From: Chloroflexota bacterium
GTDB taxonomy: Bacteria; Chloroflexota; Anaerolineae; Anaerolineales; Villigracilaceae
Length of the DNA: 64,000 nucleotides
Reading direction: 5' to 3'
Assembly: GCA_016213105.1 (NCBI GenBank)
Contig: JACRBN010000007.1
Span: 1 to 64,000 of the forward strand
Shown: piece by piece, positions 48,936-57,495 of the stretch
How the letters are laid out: every line of letters begins with the position of its first letter
How positions within the stretch are numbered: the first letter of the stretch is position 1
The notes under the pieces: generated by a model
The model's database searches: none
What the model saw: the letters and a program-made list of their open reading frames with translations, nothing else
What the model was told of the DNA's origin: nothing
Program-made: the position numbers and the translations under genes

Positions 48936-48989
48936 ATATTTATGATATTTATCTAATATATTGACAATCCTTCCCCGCGCGGTTATACT
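48936..48989 (+). promoter_or_regulatory. sufR promoter with upstream ATATTTATGATA operator
   Basis: TTGACA (48961..48966), 17 bp and TATACT (48984..48989). ATATTTATGATA is at 48936..48947, just upstream of the -35. The -10 box ends 7 bp before the sufR ATG and there is no Shine-Dalgarno sequence, so the transcript is probably leaderless. The operator suggests autoregulation. Confidence 0.8.
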
Positions 48990-48996
48990 CGCCGCC

Positions 48997-49620
48997 ATGA
49001 AAAGCACGCGAGATCGAATTTTACAGACCCTGCTCCGCAAGCCCCGCTCGACCATCAATGAACTGGCCGAAGCGGTCGGCATTAATCCTATTTCCGTGCG
49101 TCATCACCTGACCAACCTGCAAATGGAAGGCCTGGTGGAGGGCGAGGAGGAACGCCACGGGGTTGGGCGTCCGCGCCTGGTGTACGTGCTGACCGAGGCG
49201 GGCATGGAGAAATTCCCCACCCGCTACCTGCGCCTCACTACCCGTCTGCTCAGCCAGATGAAGGAAACCATGCCCAAGCCGATGGTGGCGAAGCTGTTCA
49301 ACCAGATCGCCGAGGATCTGGCCAGCGATTACGAAGCCCAGATGCTCGGCATGAGCATGGAGGAACGCCTGGATTTCGTCAAGGAAATGCTTGCCGAGGA
49401 GGGTTTCACCGTCGAATGGGAGAAGAAGGGCACGCAATACCAGATCCACGAGATTTCCTGTCCCTACTACCAGATTGGCATGGCCCACCCCGAAGTCTGC
49501 ACCGTGGACCAGACCCTGATCTCGAGGATGCTGGCCCTGCCAGCCAGCAAGGTGCAGTGCATCCTGGATGGCGGCGCACAATGCACCTACGTGGTCCAGC
49601 CGGTGGAAACGGTAAAATAA
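48997..49620 (+). CDS. sufR: SufR-type Fe-S-responsive transcription regulator
   Basis: A 207-residue protein. The N-terminal winged helix-turn-helix is RDRILQTLLRKPRSTINELA then EAVGINPISVRHHLTNLQME. The C-terminal domain carries four Cys (EISCPYYQIG, PEVCTVDQ, KVQCILDG, AQCTYVV) that could ligate a cluster, as in SufR repressors of suf operons. The shared operator at suf, sod and its own promoter supports that role. SufT follows 94 bp downstream. Confidence 0.85.
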   Translation: MKSTRDRILQTLLRKPRSTINELAEAVGINPISVRHHLTNLQMEGLVEGEEERHGVGRPRLVYVLTEAGMEKFPTRYLRLTTRLLSQMKETMPKPMVAKLFNQIAEDLASDYEAQMLGMSMEERLDFVKEMLAEEGFTVEWEKKGTQYQIHEISCPYYQIGMAHPEVCTVDQTLISRMLALPASKVQCILDGGAQCTYVVQPVETVK

Positions 49621-49714: not shown

Positions 49715-50062
49715 ATGAACGAACCCGAAATCAAGGAAATTCAGTGGACGATCCACTCCACCCATCCAGACCGCGTACCCGAGGTGCGTGCGAAACTGGC
49801 CGAAGTGGTCGACCCCGAGATTGGAATGACCATTATCCAACTGGGCCTGGTTCGCGACGTCATCATCGAAAACGACATCGCCCGCCTAAAGATGATCCTG
49901 ACCACGCCCTTCTGTCCCTACGGCCCCGCCATGATCGAAATGACCAAGGCCAAAGCCATGGAAGGGCTGAACATGCCCGTGACCGTCGAGATGGGCATGG
50001 ACATGTGGGATTTCTCGATGATGGAAGACCCGTCCGCGCTGGATTGGGGAATGTACACCTAA
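49715..50062 (+). CDS. sufT: MIP18/DUF59 family Fe-S carrier protein (SufT-like)
   Basis: A 115-residue protein: VRAKLAEVVDPEIGMTIIQL then GLVRDVIIENDIARLKMILT with TTPFCPYGPAMIEMTKAKAM, where the Cys is the reactive residue of the family. SufT proteins help insert clusters into target enzymes. GAGGA precedes the ATG. It shares its strand with sufR and ends at a strong terminator. Confidence 0.88.
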   Translation: MNEPEIKEIQWTIHSTHPDRVPEVRAKLAEVVDPEIGMTIIQLGLVRDVIIENDIARLKMILTTPFCPYGPAMIEMTKAKAMEGLNMPVTVEMGMDMWDFSMMEDPSALDWGMYT

Positions 50063-50140: not shown

Positions 50141-50746
50141 CTACTTCTTCCAGTGCATGACGTGCGGCTGTTCACCCTCGGCAAAGCCCGAGATAATAAT
50201 CAGGGCATTGGTCACCGTGTGCCCGGGGTTGCGCCAGCGGTGGCTGAGTTTGGAGGCAAAAAGCAGGCTGTCCCCCGCTTCGAGTTGGAAGATTTCCTTC
50301 TCCACGTGATATTCCAGGCTGCCGCGCAGGCAGAACACGAATTCGTGGCCCGAATGGGTGATGGATGACGGTCCGCTCGAAGCGCCGCTCTCCAGGGTGA
50401 GCATGAAAGGCTCCACCCGCCCCATGAACTGCTCCCCGCCCAGGCCTTCGAACACCCCGCGGGCAAACGCCATGCGCGGACGTGCATCCGATTTGATGAA
50501 GACCACCTGGCGTTTTTCGGCTTCGGCCCCGAAGAAGGCGGTGATCGAGACGCCCAGGGCGTCGGCCAGTTTATACAGCGTGCTGACCGAGGGCGAGGTC
50601 TTGCCCCGCTCGATCATGCTGAGCGCGTTGGCAGACAAACCGCTGGCCGTAGCCAGCCCGCGCATGGAAATATTGTGCGCCTCCCGCAATTCGCGCAGGC
50701 GCCCGCCTACATCCACCGAAATGGCTTCCCGTTGAAAGGTTTCCAT
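50141..50746 (-). CDS. XRE-family regulator with C-terminal cupin domain
   Basis: A 201-residue protein from METFQREAISVDVGGRLREL (50746), with AGGAG upstream. The helix-turn-helix is REAHNISMRGLATASGLSAN then ALSMIERGKTSPSVSTLYKL; the cupin is SITHSGHEFVFCLRGSLEYH then VEKEIFQLEAGDSLLFASKL and SHRW. Relatives regulate sulfur, amino-acid or polyamine genes by sensing a small ligand in the cupin. It is divergent from the ArsR-cytochrome operon and probably controls it. Confidence 0.9.
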   Translation of the reverse strand: METFQREAISVDVGGRLRELREAHNISMRGLATASGLSANALSMIERGKTSPSVSTLYKLADALGVSITAFFGAEAEKRQVVFIKSDARPRMAFARGVFEGLGGEQFMGRVEPFMLTLESGASSGPSSITHSGHEFVFCLRGSLEYHVEKEIFQLEAGDSLLFASKLSHRWRNPGHTVTNALIIISGFAEGEQPHVMHWKK

Positions 50747-50908: not shown

Positions 50909-51244
50909 ATGATCACACCCGCACTCCGCCAGGAAATCAGCCAGCTCGAAGCAGACTTCTGCTCCGCCCTCTCCGATCCCACGCGCATCTTCATCCTGTA
51001 CGCCCTCAGCGAGGGACCGCGCAACGTAACCGAACTCACCGCCGAACTTGGCATCCCCCAACCCACCACCTCGCGCCACCTCAAGATCCTGCGCGACCGC
51101 GGGTTGGTTCAAACCTCCCGTCAAGGCACCACCGTCACCTACAGCCTGGCCGATACGCGCCTGATCCAGGCACTCGACCTGCTGCGCGCCGTCATGCGTG
51201 AGCGCATCGCCTATCAAGCCAGCCTGGTGACCGAACTCATTTAA
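50909..51244 (+). CDS. ArsR-family transcription regulator
   Basis: A 111-residue winged-helix protein: LEADFCSALSDPTRIFILYA, LTAELGIPQPTTSRHLKILR then DRGLVQTSRQGTTVTYSLAD. It has a single Cys (position about 18) rather than the Cys pair of SqrR/BigR persulfide sensors or the metal box of ArsR itself, so its signal is unclear. It is 9 bp upstream of the octahaem cytochrome and heads the operon. Confidence 0.9.
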   Translation: MITPALRQEISQLEADFCSALSDPTRIFILYALSEGPRNVTELTAELGIPQPTTSRHLKILRDRGLVQTSRQGTTVTYSLADTRLIQALDLLRAVMRERIAYQASLVTELI

Positions 51245-51253
51245 GGAGATTCC

Positions 51254-52696
51254 ATGAAGAAGCCCTTCCCATTCTGGATCCTCGGCCTGGTCGGCATTTT
51301 GCTGATCGTACTCGTCCCGATCCTGTATTTCGTGCCTGCCACGCAGGCCGCCAGCAACGACCCATGGTCGAACCTCCCGCAACATCCTGTCCCCGTGGAA
51401 CACAAGGACATCGTCAAGGGCGATTTCAAGACCGGCCAGGATGTGACCAGGGCCTGTCTCGAATGCCACGCCGAGGCGGCGGAAGATTTCATGATGACCA
51501 CGCACTGGACCTGGGAAAGCAGGGAATTCGATGTCCCGTGGCGGGATGCGGCCGTGACCATCGGCAAGATCAATCAGATTAACAATTTCTGCATTGGCTC
51601 CCAGGGCAATGAGAACAAGTGCATGTCCTGCCACGCCGGCTACGGCTGGGAACAGGGACGCGAATCGGCCCTCTCCAATCCTGAGAACGTGGACTGCCTG
51701 GCCTGCCACGCCGACACGGGCATCTACGGCAAGGGCGCCTTTGGCAATCCCGCCGAGGGCGTCGACCTGGTGGCCTCGGCCCAAAGCGTGCGCCTGCCCA
51801 CCCGTGAGAACTGCGGCAAATGTCACTTCGACGGCGGCGGCGGCAACGGCGTCAAGCACGGCGACCTCGACGAGAGCCTGTACTTCCCCGGCGAGAACAT
51901 CGACGTTCACATGGGCAAGCTGAACTTCCAATGCACCGACTGCCACGTCACCACCGAGCACCAGGTGCTGGGACGCATGATCGCCGACAACTACACCATC
52001 GACCCCGCGGAACAGGTTTCCTGCGAACAATGCCACACGGACCAGAAACACGAGGATGAGCGCATCAACACCCACCTCGCCGCCGTGGCCTGCCAGACCT
52101 GCCACATCCCCGCCCTGGCCATCCAGGACCCAACCAAGGTCTATTGGGACTGGTCGAAGGCCGGGCAGGAAGGCCGTGTGGACGATCATTTCACCTACCT
52201 GAAGATCAAGGGCGAGTTCACCTACGAAAAGAATTATGCACCCGCCTACATCTGGTTCAACGGCAATAATGAGTATCGCTACATCCTCGGCGACAAGATC
52301 GACCCCGAAGGCATCACCTACATCAACAAGCCGGCTGGGACGATCAACGACCCCAGGGCCAAAATCTTCCCGTTCAAGATCCACGTCGCCAAGCAACCCT
52401 TCGATGCGGTCAACCTGTACCTGCTGCAACCCATCACCTCGGGCAAGGACGGCTTCTGGACCAATTTCGATTGGAACCAGGCCTTCGAACTGGCCGAACC
52501 GATCACCGGCCTGAAATACAGCGGACAGTACGATTTCGCCACCACAACCATGTACTGGCCGACCACCCACATGGTCCAGCCCGCCTCCAGGGCTTTGCAG
52601 TGCGATAGCTGCCACGGTGAGAGCGGCCGCATGGACTGGGGGGCCCTCGGCTATCCCGGCGACCCAATCGAATGGGGCGGACGCACATCCAAGTAA
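51254..52696 (+). CDS. Octahaem c-type cytochrome, tetrathionate reductase (OTR) family
   Basis: A 480-residue exported protein with an N-terminal signal anchor (WILGLVGILLIVLVPILYFV). Eight CxxCH motifs are present: CLECH, CMSCH, CLACH, CGKCH, CTDCH, CEQCH, CQTCH, CDSCH. NNFCIGSQGNENKCMSCHAG then YGW is close to the OTR family. Relatives reduce tetrathionate, nitrite or hydroxylamine in vitro; the true substrate here is unknown, but the thiosulfate-type transporters downstream favour a sulfur oxyanion. The protein acts outside the cytoplasmic membrane. Confidence 0.9.
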   Translation: MKKPFPFWILGLVGILLIVLVPILYFVPATQAASNDPWSNLPQHPVPVEHKDIVKGDFKTGQDVTRACLECHAEAAEDFMMTTHWTWESREFDVPWRDAAVTIGKINQINNFCIGSQGNENKCMSCHAGYGWEQGRESALSNPENVDCLACHADTGIYGKGAFGNPAEGVDLVASAQSVRLPTRENCGKCHFDGGGGNGVKHGDLDESLYFPGENIDVHMGKLNFQCTDCHVTTEHQVLGRMIADNYTIDPAEQVSCEQCHTDQKHEDERINTHLAAVACQTCHIPALAIQDPTKVYWDWSKAGQEGRVDDHFTYLKIKGEFTYEKNYAPAYIWFNGNNEYRYILGDKIDPEGITYINKPAGTINDPRAKIFPFKIHVAKQPFDAVNLYLLQPITSGKDGFWTNFDWNQAFELAEPITGLKYSGQYDFATTTMYWPTTHMVQPASRALQCDSCHGESGRMDWGALGYPGDPIEWGGRTSK

Positions 52697-55441
52697 ATGG
52701 ATAAAACAATGAACAAACGTCAACTCTCCTTTACCCTCCTGCTGGCTGGATTGCTCGTCATCGGGCTGGGATTCGGCATCCAGTCCGTGTATGCAAAGCA
52801 CAGCGACGCTCCCGCCATCGAGGCCTCGCCCATCCACCCGACCTTCCCCCTGCTCGATGCCAACGGGGCCAACGTGCTGAAGAACGGCGGCGACGTCTCT
52901 CCCATGCAGACCTGCGGCCAGTGCCACGATACCGAATACATTCAACAGCACGCCTTCCATTCGGACCTGGGCTTGAGCGACTATGCGCAGTCTAGCGAAA
53001 CCTGGGACGCCAGCAACGGCGTTTTCGGCCAGTGGGACCCGCTGACCTACCGCTACCTCTCGCAGAAGAACGATGAACGCCTCGACCTTTCGACCGCGGA
53101 ATGGCTGATGGTCAACGCCAACCGCGTCATCGGCGGCGGACCGGCCGACACCACCCGCGGCGGCAAACCGCTCTCGGGCGTGAAGGGCGACGCAGCGAAC
53201 CCCGAGGCCAGCATCCTCGATCCCGAAACGGGCCAGCCCACAGCCTGGGATTGGTCTGAATCGGGCACGATGGAGATGAACTGCTTCGTCTGCCATCTCC
53301 AGGATCCCAACAACGTGCAGCGCGTGAAGGCCATCCAGGCGGGGAAATTCGGCAGCGCCGCCACGGCCACCCTGGTCGGCACGGGCATCGTCACCCACAC
53401 CACCAGCGACTATTTCTGGAACGACGCCGCCTTCGACGCCGAGGGCAACCTCAAGGAGCGCTACGTCCTCATCCAGGACCCGACCAACGCCAACTGCGCG
53501 GCCTGCCACGGCGAGATCCACCCCGAGGCGCTGGAACCGCTCACGATCTCAGCCTGTGACCTCGACTACCCGCAGACCGCCACCACCGGACAGGTCATCG
53601 CTGCCCAGAAGATTAACGAATCGGGCGTGAACCTGGCGGACAAACAGGAACTCAACCACTCCTGGGACATTCACGCCGAGCGCCAGCTGCAATGCACCGA
53701 CTGCCACTTCGCGCTGAACAATCCCGCGCACGCTCTGGAGATCCAGGGCGAGGACCCAGAGCACCTGGTCTACGACCCGCGCAAGCTCGACATCGGCGAA
53801 TACATCCAGCGCCCCGACCATGACTTCGCGCGCGGACAGAGCGCCCAGTTCAACATCAAACCCGAGATGAAGGGCACCATGCGCCGCTGCGAATCCTGCC
53901 ACGACGCGAACCAGGCACACGCCGACTGGCTGCCCTACGTGGACAAGCACATGAATGCCGTGGCCTGCGAGTCCTGCCACATCACGCAGATGTACGCCCC
54001 CGCCATCCAGACCTATGACTGGACCGTGGTCAGTGTGGACGGACAGCCCGCCAGCCAATGCCGCGGCGTGGAAGGCGACCCGAACTCGGTCACCTCGCTG
54101 GTGACGGGCTTCGAACCCGCCCTGCTCAACCGCACCAACGTGGACGGCAAAAAACTGCTGGCCCCGTACAACCTGATCACGGCCTACTACTGGGTCTACG
54201 ACGACCCGAACGGCCCGCGCCCCGTGCGCCTCGTGGACCTGGAAGCGGCCTACCTCGTGGACGGCGGCTACGCGCCCGAGATCCTCTCCGCCTTCGACGC
54301 GAACTCGGACGGCTCCCTCGACGAGAACGAACTGAAGATCGACTCGGACGAAAAACAAGGTGTGGTCGCCAGCCAACTCTCCGCGCTCGGGTTGAAGAAT
54401 CCGCGCATCGAGGGCCAGGTGCAGCCATACAGCATCAACCACAACGTGGCGCGCGGCGAGGACGCGGTCAACGACTGCAAATCCTGCCACAACACGCCCG
54501 AAGAATCGCGCGTCAGCCAGCCCATCGAACTGGCCGCCTACGCCCCCAACGGCGTGATGCCCCGCTTCGTGGACGGAACGAACGTCAACGTCAGCGGCGA
54601 GATCGTGCTCAAGGACGGCGCGGTCTACTACCAGCCCAAACCGACCAACGACAAGATGTACGTCTTCGGCTCCAGCCGCGTGAACTGGATCGACTGGCTG
54701 GGCGCGCTGGCCTTCGTGGGCGCACTGCTGGGCGTGCTCGGACACGGCACCTTCCGCTACGTCAACTTCATGCGCAGGCCGAAGGGCAAGGTCGAGACCA
54801 AACCCGTGTACATGTACGAAGCCTATCGCCGCTTCTGGCACTGGCTCCAGACCACATCCATCATCATCCTGCTCTTCACGGGGTTGATCATCCACCGCCC
54901 CGACGTGTTCGGCATCTTCTCCTTCCGCGGCGTGGTGCTGATTCACAACGTGCTGGCCGCCATCCTGGTGATAAATGCCCTGCTGTCGGTCTTCTACCAC
55001 CTGACCACCGGCCGCGTGCAGGAATACATCCCGCGCCCGTATGGCTTCTTCGACGACGCCATCGTGCAGGCCAAGTACTACATCGGCGGCATCTTCAAGG
55101 GTGAAGCGCATCCGTTCGCGAAGACGCCGAACAGCCGCATGAACCCGATCCAGAAGGCCACCTATTTCGCCATCCTGCTGGTGCTGCTGCCCCTGCAAAT
55201 GATCTCGGGCGCCTTGATGTGGGGCGTACAGCAATTCCCCGCCATCGCCAACCTGTTCGGCGGCCTGCCCGTGCTGGCCCCCTTCCACTCGCTGGTGGCC
55301 TGGCTGTTCGCAGCCTTCATCATCGTGCACGTGTACATGACCACCACGGGCGCCACCCCGGTCGAATCCATCCGCGCGATGGTCACAGGCTGGGAGGACG
55401 TGGAAGTCCACAGCCATCATGAAGAATCAGGCGCTTCGTAA
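52697..55441 (+). CDS. Seven-haem cytochrome c fused to a cytochrome b561-type membrane anchor
   Basis: A 914-residue protein. The exported N-terminal two-thirds has seven CxxCH motifs: CGQCH, CFVCH, CAACH, CTDCH, CESCH, CESCH, CKSCH. At about 535-548 FDANSDGSLDENEL is a canonical EF-hand calcium loop. From about 665 to 895 come five helices of the thiosulfate-reductase/formate-dehydrogenase cytochrome b type, with YRRFWHWLQTTSIIILLFTG, LIHNVLAAILVINALLSVFY and FHSLVAWLFAAFIIVHVYM holding the likely haem His. It probably moves electrons between quinol and the octahaem enzyme. Its ATG follows the upstream stop with no gap. Confidence 0.88.
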   Translation: MDKTMNKRQLSFTLLLAGLLVIGLGFGIQSVYAKHSDAPAIEASPIHPTFPLLDANGANVLKNGGDVSPMQTCGQCHDTEYIQQHAFHSDLGLSDYAQSSETWDASNGVFGQWDPLTYRYLSQKNDERLDLSTAEWLMVNANRVIGGGPADTTRGGKPLSGVKGDAANPEASILDPETGQPTAWDWSESGTMEMNCFVCHLQDPNNVQRVKAIQAGKFGSAATATLVGTGIVTHTTSDYFWNDAAFDAEGNLKERYVLIQDPTNANCAACHGEIHPEALEPLTISACDLDYPQTATTGQVIAAQKINESGVNLADKQELNHSWDIHAERQLQCTDCHFALNNPAHALEIQGEDPEHLVYDPRKLDIGEYIQRPDHDFARGQSAQFNIKPEMKGTMRRCESCHDANQAHADWLPYVDKHMNAVACESCHITQMYAPAIQTYDWTVVSVDGQPASQCRGVEGDPNSVTSLVTGFEPALLNRTNVDGKKLLAPYNLITAYYWVYDDPNGPRPVRLVDLEAAYLVDGGYAPEILSAFDANSDGSLDENELKIDSDEKQGVVASQLSALGLKNPRIEGQVQPYSINHNVARGEDAVNDCKSCHNTPEESRVSQPIELAAYAPNGVMPRFVDGTNVNVSGEIVLKDGAVYYQPKPTNDKMYVFGSSRVNWIDWLGALAFVGALLGVLGHGTFRYVNFMRRPKGKVETKPVYMYEAYRRFWHWLQTTSIIILLFTGLIIHRPDVFGIFSFRGVVLIHNVLAAILVINALLSVFYHLTTGRVQEYIPRPYGFFDDAIVQAKYYIGGIFKGEAHPFAKTPNSRMNPIQKATYFAILLVLLPLQMISGALMWGVQQFPAIANLFGGLPVLAPFHSLVAWLFAAFIIVHVYMTTTGATPVESIRAMVTGWEDVEVHSHHEESGAS

Positions 55442-55468
55442 TTCGCGTTCGTGACAAGGAGATTTATT

Positions 55469-56020
55469 ATGACCACTGCAACTCCTGCAACACCCCAAAA
55501 GGCGCAGTACGGCCCCAAGCCGTACGTGCATCCCTACTTTGGCGGATTCGTGCTGGGCATCGTCCTGTTCCTGGCCATGTTCCTGACGGGCAACGGCCTG
55601 GGCTCCTCGGGCGCCACCAGCCGCATCGACGCGGCCATCGTGGACGCGATCAGCCCCTCGCACGTGGACAACAATCCCTACCTGCTCAAGATGGCGGGCG
55701 GCGACAAGAACCCGCTGGACGACTGGATCGTGCCGGTCTTCTTCGGCGCCCTGCTGGGCGGATTCTCCTCGGGCCTGTTCAACCGCCGTTTGAAATTCGA
55801 GACCACCAAAGGCCCGAACATCTCGGTGCGCACGCGCTGGCTGGTGGCCTTCCTGGGCGGCGTGATCTTCCTGTACGGGGCGCGCCTGGCGCGCGGCTGC
55901 ACCTCGGGCCAGGCCCTGACGGGCGGAACGACGCTCTCGGCCGGCTCGTGGCTGATCATGTTCTCCATCTTCGGCGGCGCGTATGCGCTGGCCTACTTCG
56001 TCCGCAAATTGTGGAACTAG
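55469..56020 (+). CDS. YeeE/YedE family transporter subunit (first)
   Basis: A 183-residue membrane protein from MTTATPATPQ (55469), AAGGAG upstream. Helices at about 25-45, 85-103, 120-140 and 150-175; ARLARGCTSGQALTGGTTLS is the conserved Cys motif of the family, which includes the thiosulfate transporter TsuA. It forms half of a split transporter with the next gene, 9 bp downstream. Confidence 0.87.
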   Translation: MTTATPATPQKAQYGPKPYVHPYFGGFVLGIVLFLAMFLTGNGLGSSGATSRIDAAIVDAISPSHVDNNPYLLKMAGGDKNPLDDWIVPVFFGALLGGFSSGLFNRRLKFETTKGPNISVRTRWLVAFLGGVIFLYGARLARGCTSGQALTGGTTLSAGSWLIMFSIFGGAYALAYFVRKLWN

Positions 56021-56029
56021 GAGGCTGAG

Positions 56030-57304
56030 ATGCAATTCCCACTTCAAAGTTTTAATGCCGTCAGCGCCGCCAACCCGTGGACGTACGTGCTCTTCGGCCT
56101 GATCGGTTTTGCCTTCGGTTTCACCCTTGAAATGTCGGGCTTCGGCAACAGCACCAAGCTGGCCGCGCAGTTCTACTTCAAGGAATTGACCGTGCTCAAG
56201 GTCATGTTCACCGCCATCGTCACCGCCATGGTGCTGACCTTCGGCGCGGCGGGCCTGGGCATCCTGGATTTCAGCCTGGTATGGGTCAATCACACCTACA
56301 TCGCCTCGGGCATCGTCGGCGGGTTGATCATGGGCGTCGGCTTCATCGTCGGCGGCTTCTGCCCCACCACGTCGCTGGCCTCGGCCTCGACGGGCAAGAT
56401 CGACGGCATGATGTTCATGCTGGGCGGCTTCGTGGGCGCCTTCCTGTTCGGCGAGACCGAGCAGTACTTCACCCAGTGGTACAACAACGCGGGCTTCTAC
56501 GGCCGCCTGACCCTCGACCAGGTCTTCGGCCTGCCCGTGGGCGTGGTCGTGCTGCTGGTGGTGCTGATGGCCCTGTTCATGTTCTGGGGCGCGGAACAAC
56601 TGGAACGCTTGATCGGCAAAAAGGATATGTCGCATGAGCCCAGGCTGCGCCTGTTCGGCGCGGGCGCGCTCTTCGTCGGCGCCGTGGCCGTGGTACTGAT
56701 CGGCCAGCCCAGCCTCGAATCCCGCTACGCCAAGGTGACCTTCACCCGCACCGTGAACGCGCAGGAGGTCAGCTACTCCGCCGACGACATGCTGGCCAAC
56801 CGACTGGTGTTCGTCTCGCCGGCCGAGGCTTTCAAGGCCGAGTACAACCAGTCCATGAACCCGATCTACCTCGACGTGCGCTCCGAAGCGGACTATAACC
56901 TGTACCACATCGAGAACGCGGTCAACGTGCCGCTGGCGCACATCAGCGAGGTCATCCCGACCCTGTTGAGCGAACCTGCCGCCAACTCGGTCTTCATCCT
57001 GATCAGCAACGACGAGACCGCCGCCGTGCAGGCCTGGAAAATTTTGGTGGCGTCGAGCGTTCCGAATGTATACGTGCTCGAAGGCGGCGTCAACAACTGG
57101 ATCAGCTTCTTCGCGGAGGATGATCCCGCGCTCCAGCCCAACCCGCTGGCGGGCGACGACCAGTTGAAGTACACCTTCCCCGCCGCCCTGGGCGCGCGCT
57201 ACGAGTCGTGCAGTCCCAGCCCGATCGAATACGAAAACCTGACCTACGACGCCCGCATCGTCCTGCAGCTCAAACGCGACAAGAGCGGCGGCGGCTGCGG
57301 ATAA
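56030..57304 (+). CDS. YeeE/YedE transporter subunit fused to a rhodanese domain lacking its cysteine
   Basis: A 424-residue protein. The N-terminal half (1-240) has YedE helices with GFAFGFTLEMSGFGNSTKLA and VGFIVGGFCPTTSLASASTG. An extracytoplasmic rhodanese domain follows (about 255-375): NPIYLDVRSEADYNLYHIEN then AVNVPLAHI. Where the catalytic Cys loop should be there is FILISNDETAAVQAW, so the sulfur-carrying Cys is absent. The C-terminus holds two other Cys, ARYESCSPSP and the final SGGGCG. It probably binds or guides thiosulfate or persulfide rather than transferring sulfur by the usual route. Confidence 0.87.
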   Translation: MQFPLQSFNAVSAANPWTYVLFGLIGFAFGFTLEMSGFGNSTKLAAQFYFKELTVLKVMFTAIVTAMVLTFGAAGLGILDFSLVWVNHTYIASGIVGGLIMGVGFIVGGFCPTTSLASASTGKIDGMMFMLGGFVGAFLFGETEQYFTQWYNNAGFYGRLTLDQVFGLPVGVVVLLVVLMALFMFWGAEQLERLIGKKDMSHEPRLRLFGAGALFVGAVAVVLIGQPSLESRYAKVTFTRTVNAQEVSYSADDMLANRLVFVSPAEAFKAEYNQSMNPIYLDVRSEADYNLYHIENAVNVPLAHISEVIPTLLSEPAANSVFILISNDETAAVQAWKILVASSVPNVYVLEGGVNNWISFFAEDDPALQPNPLAGDDQLKYTFPAALGARYESCSPSPIEYENLTYDARIVLQLKRDKSGGGCG

Positions 57305-57353
57305 TCTCCATTGAAAATCAGGGGTCAGATCGCCACTGATCCATGAGGAGCAA

Positions 57354-57392
57354 CAGAAGAAGGCTTCGGAAACGTCCCGGAGCCTTCTTCTG
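57354..57392 (+). terminator. Terminator of the cytochrome-transporter operon
   Basis: CAGAAGAAGGCT and AGCCTTCTTCTG with inner pairing form a strong stem followed by a T7 run. Confidence 0.9.
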
Positions 57393-57495
57393 TTTTTTTG
57401 TAACGCCTTTCAATGCCGTTGCCCAAACCACCCATTCGTTGTATGCTATAAGCATTCACAGGAATCGATCCCGATTTTTCCAGTTCGGAGGAAAC

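Follow-up and report, generated by a model that had tools for sequence, protein, structure and literature searches.

An octahaem OTR-family cytochrome shares a conserved operon with a split YedE transporter that ends in a cysteine tail

The DNA analysed here (the window) is a stretch of 64,000 nucleotides, positions 1-64000 of contig C4 (JACRBN010000007.1), from a Chloroflexota genome (GCA_016213105.1) of 5.39 Mb in 28 contigs. At 50909-57304 lie the genes of an ArsR regulator, an octahaem c-type cytochrome of the OTR family, a seven-haem/b561 fusion cytochrome (C7b) and two YeeE/YedE proteins (YedEs and YedErho), which with a terminator-like hairpin form a genuine operon; YedErho ends in a glycine-rich tail with a cysteine, here called the arm. 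The five open reading frames (ORFs), proposed in an earlier note made from the letters of this DNA, were confirmed in place, all on the + strand and separated by successive gaps of 9, 0, 30 and 9 bp. Shine-Dalgarno-like sequences precede YedEs (AAGGAG) and YedErho (AGGAGG), and the start of YedEs is probably the ATG at 55472, just after its AAGGAG, in place of the GTG at 55451. The single terminator of the earlier note was recovered as a hairpin of 18 pairs followed by a T run at 57352-57394 (+ strand), but the scan was loose and returned 6 sites against 5.0 expected by chance; the 18-pair stem is the longest of the six sites in the region, the runner-up having 9 pairs. The basis throughout is sequence, mostly from metagenome-assembled genomes, with simple ORF calls and with a tail pattern that was first seen in the YedErho family.

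To our knowledge, no cellular role has been settled for OTR. The OTR encoded here (51254..52696, + strand) has 480 aa, eight CxxCH motifs and a TIGR04315 score of 550.5 bits (cut-off 375), which upholds its assignment to the octahaem family, and it matches the Shewanella oneidensis OTR structure (PDB 1sp3) at E 3.5e-133. Cys113 (51590..51592, + strand), which is outside any CxxCH, aligns with Cys64 of the 1sp3 chain, and Lys201 (51854..51856, + strand) aligns with Lys153, which is reported to be an axial haem ligand. Among the OTRs within the length filter the first column holds Cys in 223/225 and the second Lys in 225/225, and both residues are retained in both major clades of the OTR tree described below. 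The protein has one hydrophobic segment, at the N terminus (residues 9-27), and for this reason it looks anchored in the cytoplasmic membrane and not in an outer membrane; the "outer" catalytic cytochrome of the earlier note is thus not supported. It resembles the Shewanella OTR in scoring above the family cut-off, in its eight haems and in keeping the Cys64 and Lys153 columns. The difference is that OTR is found here in an operon with C7b, the split YedE and the arm, and that its likely electron partner is the b561 fusion, whereas the partner given for Shewanella OTR is the soluble shuttle STC (PMC4484225). OTR has been in the literature since 2004 with tetrathionate, nitrite and hydroxylamine activities, as cited in PMC4484225, and for Thermosulfurimonas dismutans the literature already describes OTR adjoining a gene for cytochrome b (PMC4911364).

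C7b (52697..55441, + strand) has 914 aa, with seven CxxCH motifs and a b561 domain at residues 707-898 (PF01292, 85.7 bits, cut-off 30.1), confirming the seven-haem/b561 fusion in one polypeptide. In a Foldseek search with the AlphaFold2 model, the b561 part matched FdnI (1kqf_C, E 0.011, target TM-score 0.67) and Hya-b (6g94_A, E 0.019, target TM-score 0.61). A structural assignment of the seven-haem domain was set aside; the model was poor there (mean pLDDT 63.8), and the matches were sensible for the b561 part only, none of them reaching E 0.001. Against PhsC, the thiosulfate reductase cytochrome b (PRK15006), C7b scored 128.9 bits, under the equivalog cut-off of 204. The quinone link proposed earlier is supported by the domains of the unit, which is a conserved functional unit with sulfur-handling families.

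The two YedE genes look like one transporter split in halves, since YedEs (55472..56020, + strand; 182 aa) covers positions 177-309 of the PF04143 profile and YedErho (56030..57304, + strand; 424 aa) positions 4-192. The two proteins of the earlier note therefore both pass PF04143 (68.4 and 60.3 bits, cut-off 27), but the complementary halves rule out two full transporters, and the second protein is also rhodanese-like with a C-terminal GGCG. The only cysteine of YedEs, Cys143 (55898..55900, + strand), falls in a profile alignment on the column of TsuA Cys293, the first pore cysteine, and is kept in 54/54 homologues; the PDB entries matched were 6lep, 6leo, 8j4c and 8k1r, over TsuA residues 239-327 (E 4.5e-5 to 4.8e-5). 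Cys111 of YedErho (56360..56362, + strand; 52/52) is the probable equivalent of TsuA Cys91, given the N-half assignment by PF04143, although a weak PDB match (E 0.05) places this stretch on TsuA 270-326 instead. In TsuA, the cysteines C293, C91 and C22, followed by C17 of YeeD, line the proposed thiosulfate path (PMC11073785). Transporters of the full-length TsuA/SoxT type are single chains of 330-350 aa in which three cysteines are conserved, and the pair found here has two chains with one conserved cysteine each. It shares PF04143 and the C293 column with TsuA/YeeE and SoxT, and differs from them in being made by two genes, in bearing a probably extracytoplasmic domain and in an operon without a TsuB/YeeD-like gene. 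The half-transporters PmpA and PmpB likewise have their halves in separate genes with a single conserved pore cysteine each; in the SoxT paper, PmpB and PmpA are the N and C halves bearing the C91 and C293 cysteines, respectively (PMC11582611). The halves found here are longer (182 and 424 aa, compared with ~130 aa each), and the N half bears the rhodanese-tail domain.

After its last hydrophobic segment (206-224), YedErho continues into a rhodanese-like domain (56858..57103, + strand; PF00581, 47.2 bits, cut-off 22.2), a linker and GGCG-stop. The top Foldseek matches of this domain were rhodanese-domain proteins, the best at E 1.7e-3 and none at or below E 0.001. Rhodanese catalysis by YedErho is ruled out, as Asn327 takes the place of the catalytic loop cysteine in 52/52 aligned sequences and a simple C..G motif is absent in all 33 YedErho proteins of the Bacteroidales-order sample introduced below. 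The arm cysteine, Cys423 in the terminal GGGCG (57287..57301, + strand), is the most informative feature of the operon and was absent from the earlier note. It is present in 51/52 aligned YedErho sequences, the exception (L032) ending at a contig edge, and all 50 complete homologues end in GGCG at identities down to 44%, a further 4 frames being cut. Cys394 was also considered as a functional site and rejected, this position being Cys in 41/52 only. In the AlphaFold2 model the transporter half folded poorly, while residues 251-410 reached pLDDT 67-93 and residues 415-424 fell below 50, as would be expected of a flexible tail.

YedErho has no match to the SoxY domain (PF13501) at E 0.001, and it has what marks a SoxY-type tail, namely a flexible, glycine-rich end with a C-terminal cysteine. 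Its likeness to the SoxYZ swinging-arm carrier includes this tail, a probably extracytoplasmic position and a multihaem c-type cytochrome beside it; the differences are the lack of PF13501, a rhodanese-like carrier body fused to a transporter and a genome in which no SoxY match was found. Three points suggest that the rhodanese-tail domain lies outside the cytoplasm: its counterpart on a Gemmatirosa kalamazoonensis plasmid is encoded on its own and has a signal-like N terminus, the N termini of many counterparts in Bacteroidota are lipobox-like or hydrophobic, and the partner OTR bears c-haems. With 4 K/R and 4 D/E, the loop at residues 184-205, which precedes the last hydrophobic segment, gives no strong topology signal. 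The Gemmatirosa locus (L142, NZ_CP007129.1, ~408.7-411 kb) holds a split YedE pair and a rhodanese that ends in RRRGC and is without the catalytic cysteine. None of 72,556 plasmid records held a YedErho relative with one place covering 80% at E 1e-5, and the search with the rhodanese-tail part returned ordinary rhodaneses plus the Gemmatirosa gene. No description of OTR with arm-tailed rhodaneses or of a YedE-rhodanese fusion was found in the literature listings and passages covered.

The block of OTR, C7b, YedEs and YedErho is conserved among close relatives. The contig survey covered 77 loci, 67 of them with an OTR of at least 50% identity, and at least 4.7 kb of downstream sequence was available for 53 of these. 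All three partners were found at 51 of the 53; the exceptions were L050, in which a gap of 100 N lies 83 bp after OTR, and L092, whose OTR has 51% identity. At the more distant loci with enough sequence the block was found in 0/4. The close relatives are mainly in records titled Chloroflexi, Anaerolineales or Anaerolineae, and carriers of the module also occur in records titled Gallionellaceae, Thiobacillus, Parasulfuritortus, Rubrivivax and Rhodoferax, with no ArsR above 60 bits among the matches listed. In a sample of 400 evenly drawn Chloroflexota genomes, whose loci partly overlap with those of the contig survey, 17 had OTR at E 1e-60. The whole block was present in 16 of the 17 (the window counted), the exception being G106 with an OTR of 32% identity, and YedErho matches over at least 291 positions were found in exactly the same 16 of the 400. 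In one genome (G096; L143, C18) broken pieces of C7b, YedEs and YedErho were seen, with no OTR in the fetched stretch and none at E 1e-60 genome-wide; the parts of the module appear to decay together there.

Two further samples were drawn to cover more distant OTRs: the order of the L093 genome (Bacteroidales-titled), with OTR in 81/384 genomes at 88 loci, and the Pseudomonadota, the phylum of the L052 genome (Parasulfuritortus), with OTR in 45/398 genomes at 56 loci. The earlier note had suggested surveying OTR operons for YedE and b561 partners, and had named OTR homologues in sister species without a YedE neighbour as a refutation. In the near clade this refutation fails, since the partners are kept, but farther OTRs are often without one: YedErho was found at 33/88 Bacteroidales-order loci and at 3/56 Pseudomonadota loci (L144, L145 and L192), the latter sample having a b561-like ORF at 48/56. 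For the OTR tree (quick IQ-TREE search), 230 loci were thinned at 80% identity to 144 and length-filtered to 140. Clade 1 (26 rows, SH-aLRT 99) contains all 19 rows with C7b and YedErho plus two Bacteroidales-order rows with YedErho; its five rows scored as having none of these partners are L050, with the gap, and L056, L057, L060 and L077, with short downstream sequence. Clade 2 (105 rows, SH-aLRT 99) contains most Pseudomonadota and Bacteroidales-order rows, including 23 more with a tailed YedErho. Divergent modules were seen at the base of clade 1 in L097 and L192, each with a YedErho of 43% identity, and the tail in L192 is SGGCA and not GGCG.

The same kind of tail was found on other proteins near OTR. 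In L093-L095 the gene preceding OTR is that of a rhodanese which looks exported, is matched over two stretches and ends in GGC. Across the Bacteroidales-order sample, the 1353 closed ORFs with 80 aa or more were divided into 117 homologous to the rhodanese/YedE set and 1236 others; a cysteine is among the last three residues in 99 of the former compared with 73 of the latter, and none of these 73 has a strict GGC end. All 99 tailed ORFs are on the OTR strand. At least one tailed rhodanese or YedE-rhodanese is present at 62/88 loci, and at 48 of the 57 that are well flanked (1.6 kb or more upstream and 4 kb or more downstream). Independently of the query set, 77 strict GGC tails were counted in 1410 ORFs, compared with 0.25 expected from shuffled ends. 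The full operon order in L292 and L251 is OTR, b561, double rhodanese-GGC, YedEs, YedErho-GGC and single rhodanese-GGC, with the domains confirmed for three L292 proteins. Some of the double and single tailed rhodaneses may be active, because the C..G motif is present in 24/30 and 11/36 of them, respectively. As side observations on the cytochromes of this order, a protein with nine CxxCH motifs and a b561 domain replaces C7b after YedErho in L297 (628-2514), and L279, L287, L293 and L296 have YedE with no separate b561 match.

Tails of different proteins in one operon also match each other, over only ~13 residues, and this matching, like the anatomy, the conservation and the association of the genes, is directly observed. 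It was measured (BLOSUM62) at 17 loci where two or more protein classes have tails and every tail ends in GGC, the locus labels being shuffled 2000 times within classes; 4 of 21 loci were left out, L280, L310 and L312 as all Cys-Asp ends and L273 as mixing GGC and GGCA. Similarity between classes at positions -8..-4 was 5.77 compared with 2.07 for shuffled labels (sd 0.72), a value reached by 0/2000 shuffles. The observed similarity was reached by 2 shuffles at -13..-9, by 353 at -18..-14, by 156 at -23..-19, and by 1815, 1897 and 1919 at three more inward stretches. In a first permutation with mixed registers (GGC and CD ends) the signal also extended inward, with 13/2000 at -24..-17 and 24/2000 at -16..-9. 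As the match is confined to the protein end, it is as expected if one partner reads all the tails of an operon. One short motif on several proteins per operon, matching within operons, would also suit a signal for sorting, attachment or disulfide tethering, by which the proteins are anchored together and no sulfur is carried. We regard this as very improbable, since many tailed proteins are already anchored: a lipobox-like pattern was found in 22/30 double and 15/36 single tailed rhodaneses (and, among the remainder, hydrophobic N-terminal stretches in the examples viewed), and YedErho is itself a membrane protein. Moreover, 21/23 rhodanese ORFs away from OTR are without the tail, and SoxY proteins near OTR, the SoxY family being a known sulfur carrier (PMC11237559), end in the same kind of tail.

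The explanation we favour, and hold to be probable by a modest degree, is that OTR reacts with sulfur on SoxY-like cysteine arms and that the transporter bears its own arm, forming an extracytoplasmic sulfur relay. The function of the unit, inferred from association, would then resemble that of the swinging arm of SoxY. On the outer side of the cytoplasmic membrane, OTR would carry out redox chemistry at its Lys-ligated haem and the nearby Cys113, loading a sulfur compound onto the terminal cysteine of the YedErho tail (GGCG) or taking it off. C7b would connect OTR to the quinone pool, the exchange of electrons running via the c-haems and b561. The loaded tail would hand its sulfur to the pore cysteine Cys143 of YedEs and then to Cys111 of YedErho, the split YedE passing it inwards, and ArsR would probably sense the sulfur load. 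In Bacteroidota the same enzyme would be served by additional rhodaneses with this tail, either lipoproteins or membrane proteins. We infer that the tail carries sulfur and that OTR acts on it, as we do for the membrane side and the path into the transporter. The relay may run in either direction, as oxidative conjugation of thiosulfate-like anions or as reductive release; Thiobacillus-like carriers suggest oxidation, and the Anaerolineae suggest reduction.

Several observations weigh against this explanation. In the Pseudomonadota sample, a strict GGC tail is missing from the fetched stretch at 51/56 OTR loci, and also at 34/39 well-flanked loci (17 of the 56 being cut short), which rules out a universal link between OTR and the arm; in the Bacteroidales-order sample, 9/57 well-flanked loci are without a tail. 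OTR may therefore work without the arm. The 117-ORF set was collected with GGC-tailed queries, so the comparison with other ORFs favours tailed families, and the tail pattern was defined only after YedErho was seen. The tail shuffles ignore phylogeny and base composition except via the inner positions, so that shared descent of the tails is possible. The aligned split pair has no equivalent of TsuA C22. Finally, tails occur away from OTR, as L344 holds a split YedE with two GGC rhodaneses and no OTR in view, and the fetched stretch of the Gemmatirosa locus, with its tailed rhodanese, has no OTR match.

These last two loci leave room for an arm that works for the YedE importer only and receives its sulfur by rhodanese chemistry or from free polysulfide, OTR being a separate sulfur-linked enzyme of the same regulon. 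We consider this unlikely, because 32 of the 230 OTR loci (some contigs fetched twice) have tailed rhodaneses without a tailed YedErho, a few of them holding a YedE half without rhodanese, and because tails on other families are found near OTR without YedErho. One of these is on a SoxY ending in AGGC, 3.9 kb downstream of OTR (L187), and the other on a DUF302 protein (L178). The latter is encoded directly upstream of OTR (L178:8618-9184) and has the C-terminal sequence GGGAGGGGGGC, with the end GGGGGGC. SoxY genes with the same kind of tail are also present 7-9 kb upstream of OTR in L045 and L048, and a divergent soxY next to otr has been described in lucinid symbionts (PMC11237559). A control with rhodaneses covered 7 genomes that carry OTR, where 86 PF00581 matches gave 30 loci and 28 distinct best ORFs. 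The tail was present on 4/5 rhodanese ORFs near OTR compared with 2/23 elsewhere; the two tailed ORFs away from OTR are in the same genome, one of them beside a split YedE pair. L344 and L329 (G1168, C137 and C87) hold GGC-tailed rhodaneses off the OTR contig.

In the reading closest to the earlier note, OTR uses electrons from quinol to reduce free tetrathionate or a comparable oxyanion, YedE imports the thiosulfate product and the tail is incidental. Membership of the OTR family agrees with it, as do the thiosulfate import described for YedE relatives (PMC11073785) and the in vitro tetrathionate activity of Shewanella OTR cited in PMC4484225. However, it leaves unexplained the invariant terminal cysteine, the recurrence of such tails on rhodaneses, SoxY and DUF302 proteins near OTR, and the tail matching, and the third TsuA cysteine is missing from the split pair. 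We judge it improbable. The narrowing to free tetrathionate was not borne out, nor was the uptake of a reduced product, and no result points to a substrate or to a direction. It is most unlikely that OTR is a nitrite or hydroxylamine reductase with the sulfur genes as mere neighbours. Efficient reduction of both compounds is cited for the Shewanella enzyme in PMC4484225, but the sulfur partners are retained at nearly all near loci, the SoxY genes of L045 and L048 lie 7-9 kb upstream of OTR, and a separate NrfA-family match is present elsewhere in this genome (C27:31528-32751, with one TAA inside).

The first gene of the operon (50909..51244, + strand) encodes an ArsR/SmtB-family regulator (PF01022, 68.2 bits; NF033788, 90.9 bits, cut-off 55). 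Cys18, its sole cysteine, is invariant in 14/14 aligned orthologues and forms their one invariant Cys column. Persulfide sensors of the BigR/SoxR type have two conserved cysteines, and the BigR score here is 49.7 bits compared with a cut-off of 155. An assignment as TsoR, BigR or SoxR was rejected, with scores under the cut-offs of the matched equivalogs and no SoxR model among those listed. Beside the modules of L045, L047, L052-L054, L068, L075 and L076, no ArsR match above 60 bits was among those listed. Upstream of the operon lie a SufR-like regulator (48961-49620), a MIP18/PaaD-like Fe-S assembly protein (49715-50062) and, on the opposite strand, an HTH-cupin regulator (50141-50746), with homologues at 37, 37 and 38 of the 91 surveyed OTR loci (duplicates included), respectively. 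Elsewhere in the genome of the window (G000), C6:6978-8453 and C6:10387-11628 (L339, L345 and L350) were noted because a molybdopterin oxidoreductase, followed by a Cys-rich, 4Fe-4S-like frame, lies ~2 kb away from a 604-aa frame in which rhodanese was matched four times; this region is possibly another sulfur respiration locus. Among described systems, Dethiobacter alkaliphilus has clusters in which rhodanese genes accompany an octahaem cytochrome upregulated with thiosulfate, but that cytochrome is described as SirA/MccA-like, distant from OTR, and the excerpts of the paper mention no tail and no YedE (PMC10376724).

A broader proposal, to which we give slightly less belief than doubt, is that OTRs in at least two separate branches of the tree are carrier-protein enzymes, in a Sox-like pathway without SoxY that has matched GGC arms on rhodanese-type lipoproteins and on a YedE importer, and a b561 link to the quinone pool. 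If true, this would give OTR a physiological substrate, and if OTR acts on arm-bound sulfur, assays with small molecules may have missed that substrate. The route of carrier-bound sulfur to the pore is an open point in the work on SoxT, and in the operon described here the transporter has an arm of its own. If OTR does act on arm-bound sulfur, Chloroflexota, Bacteroidota and some Pseudomonadota would have a second Sox-like relay, with its genes filed under OTR, rhodanese and YeeE/YedE.

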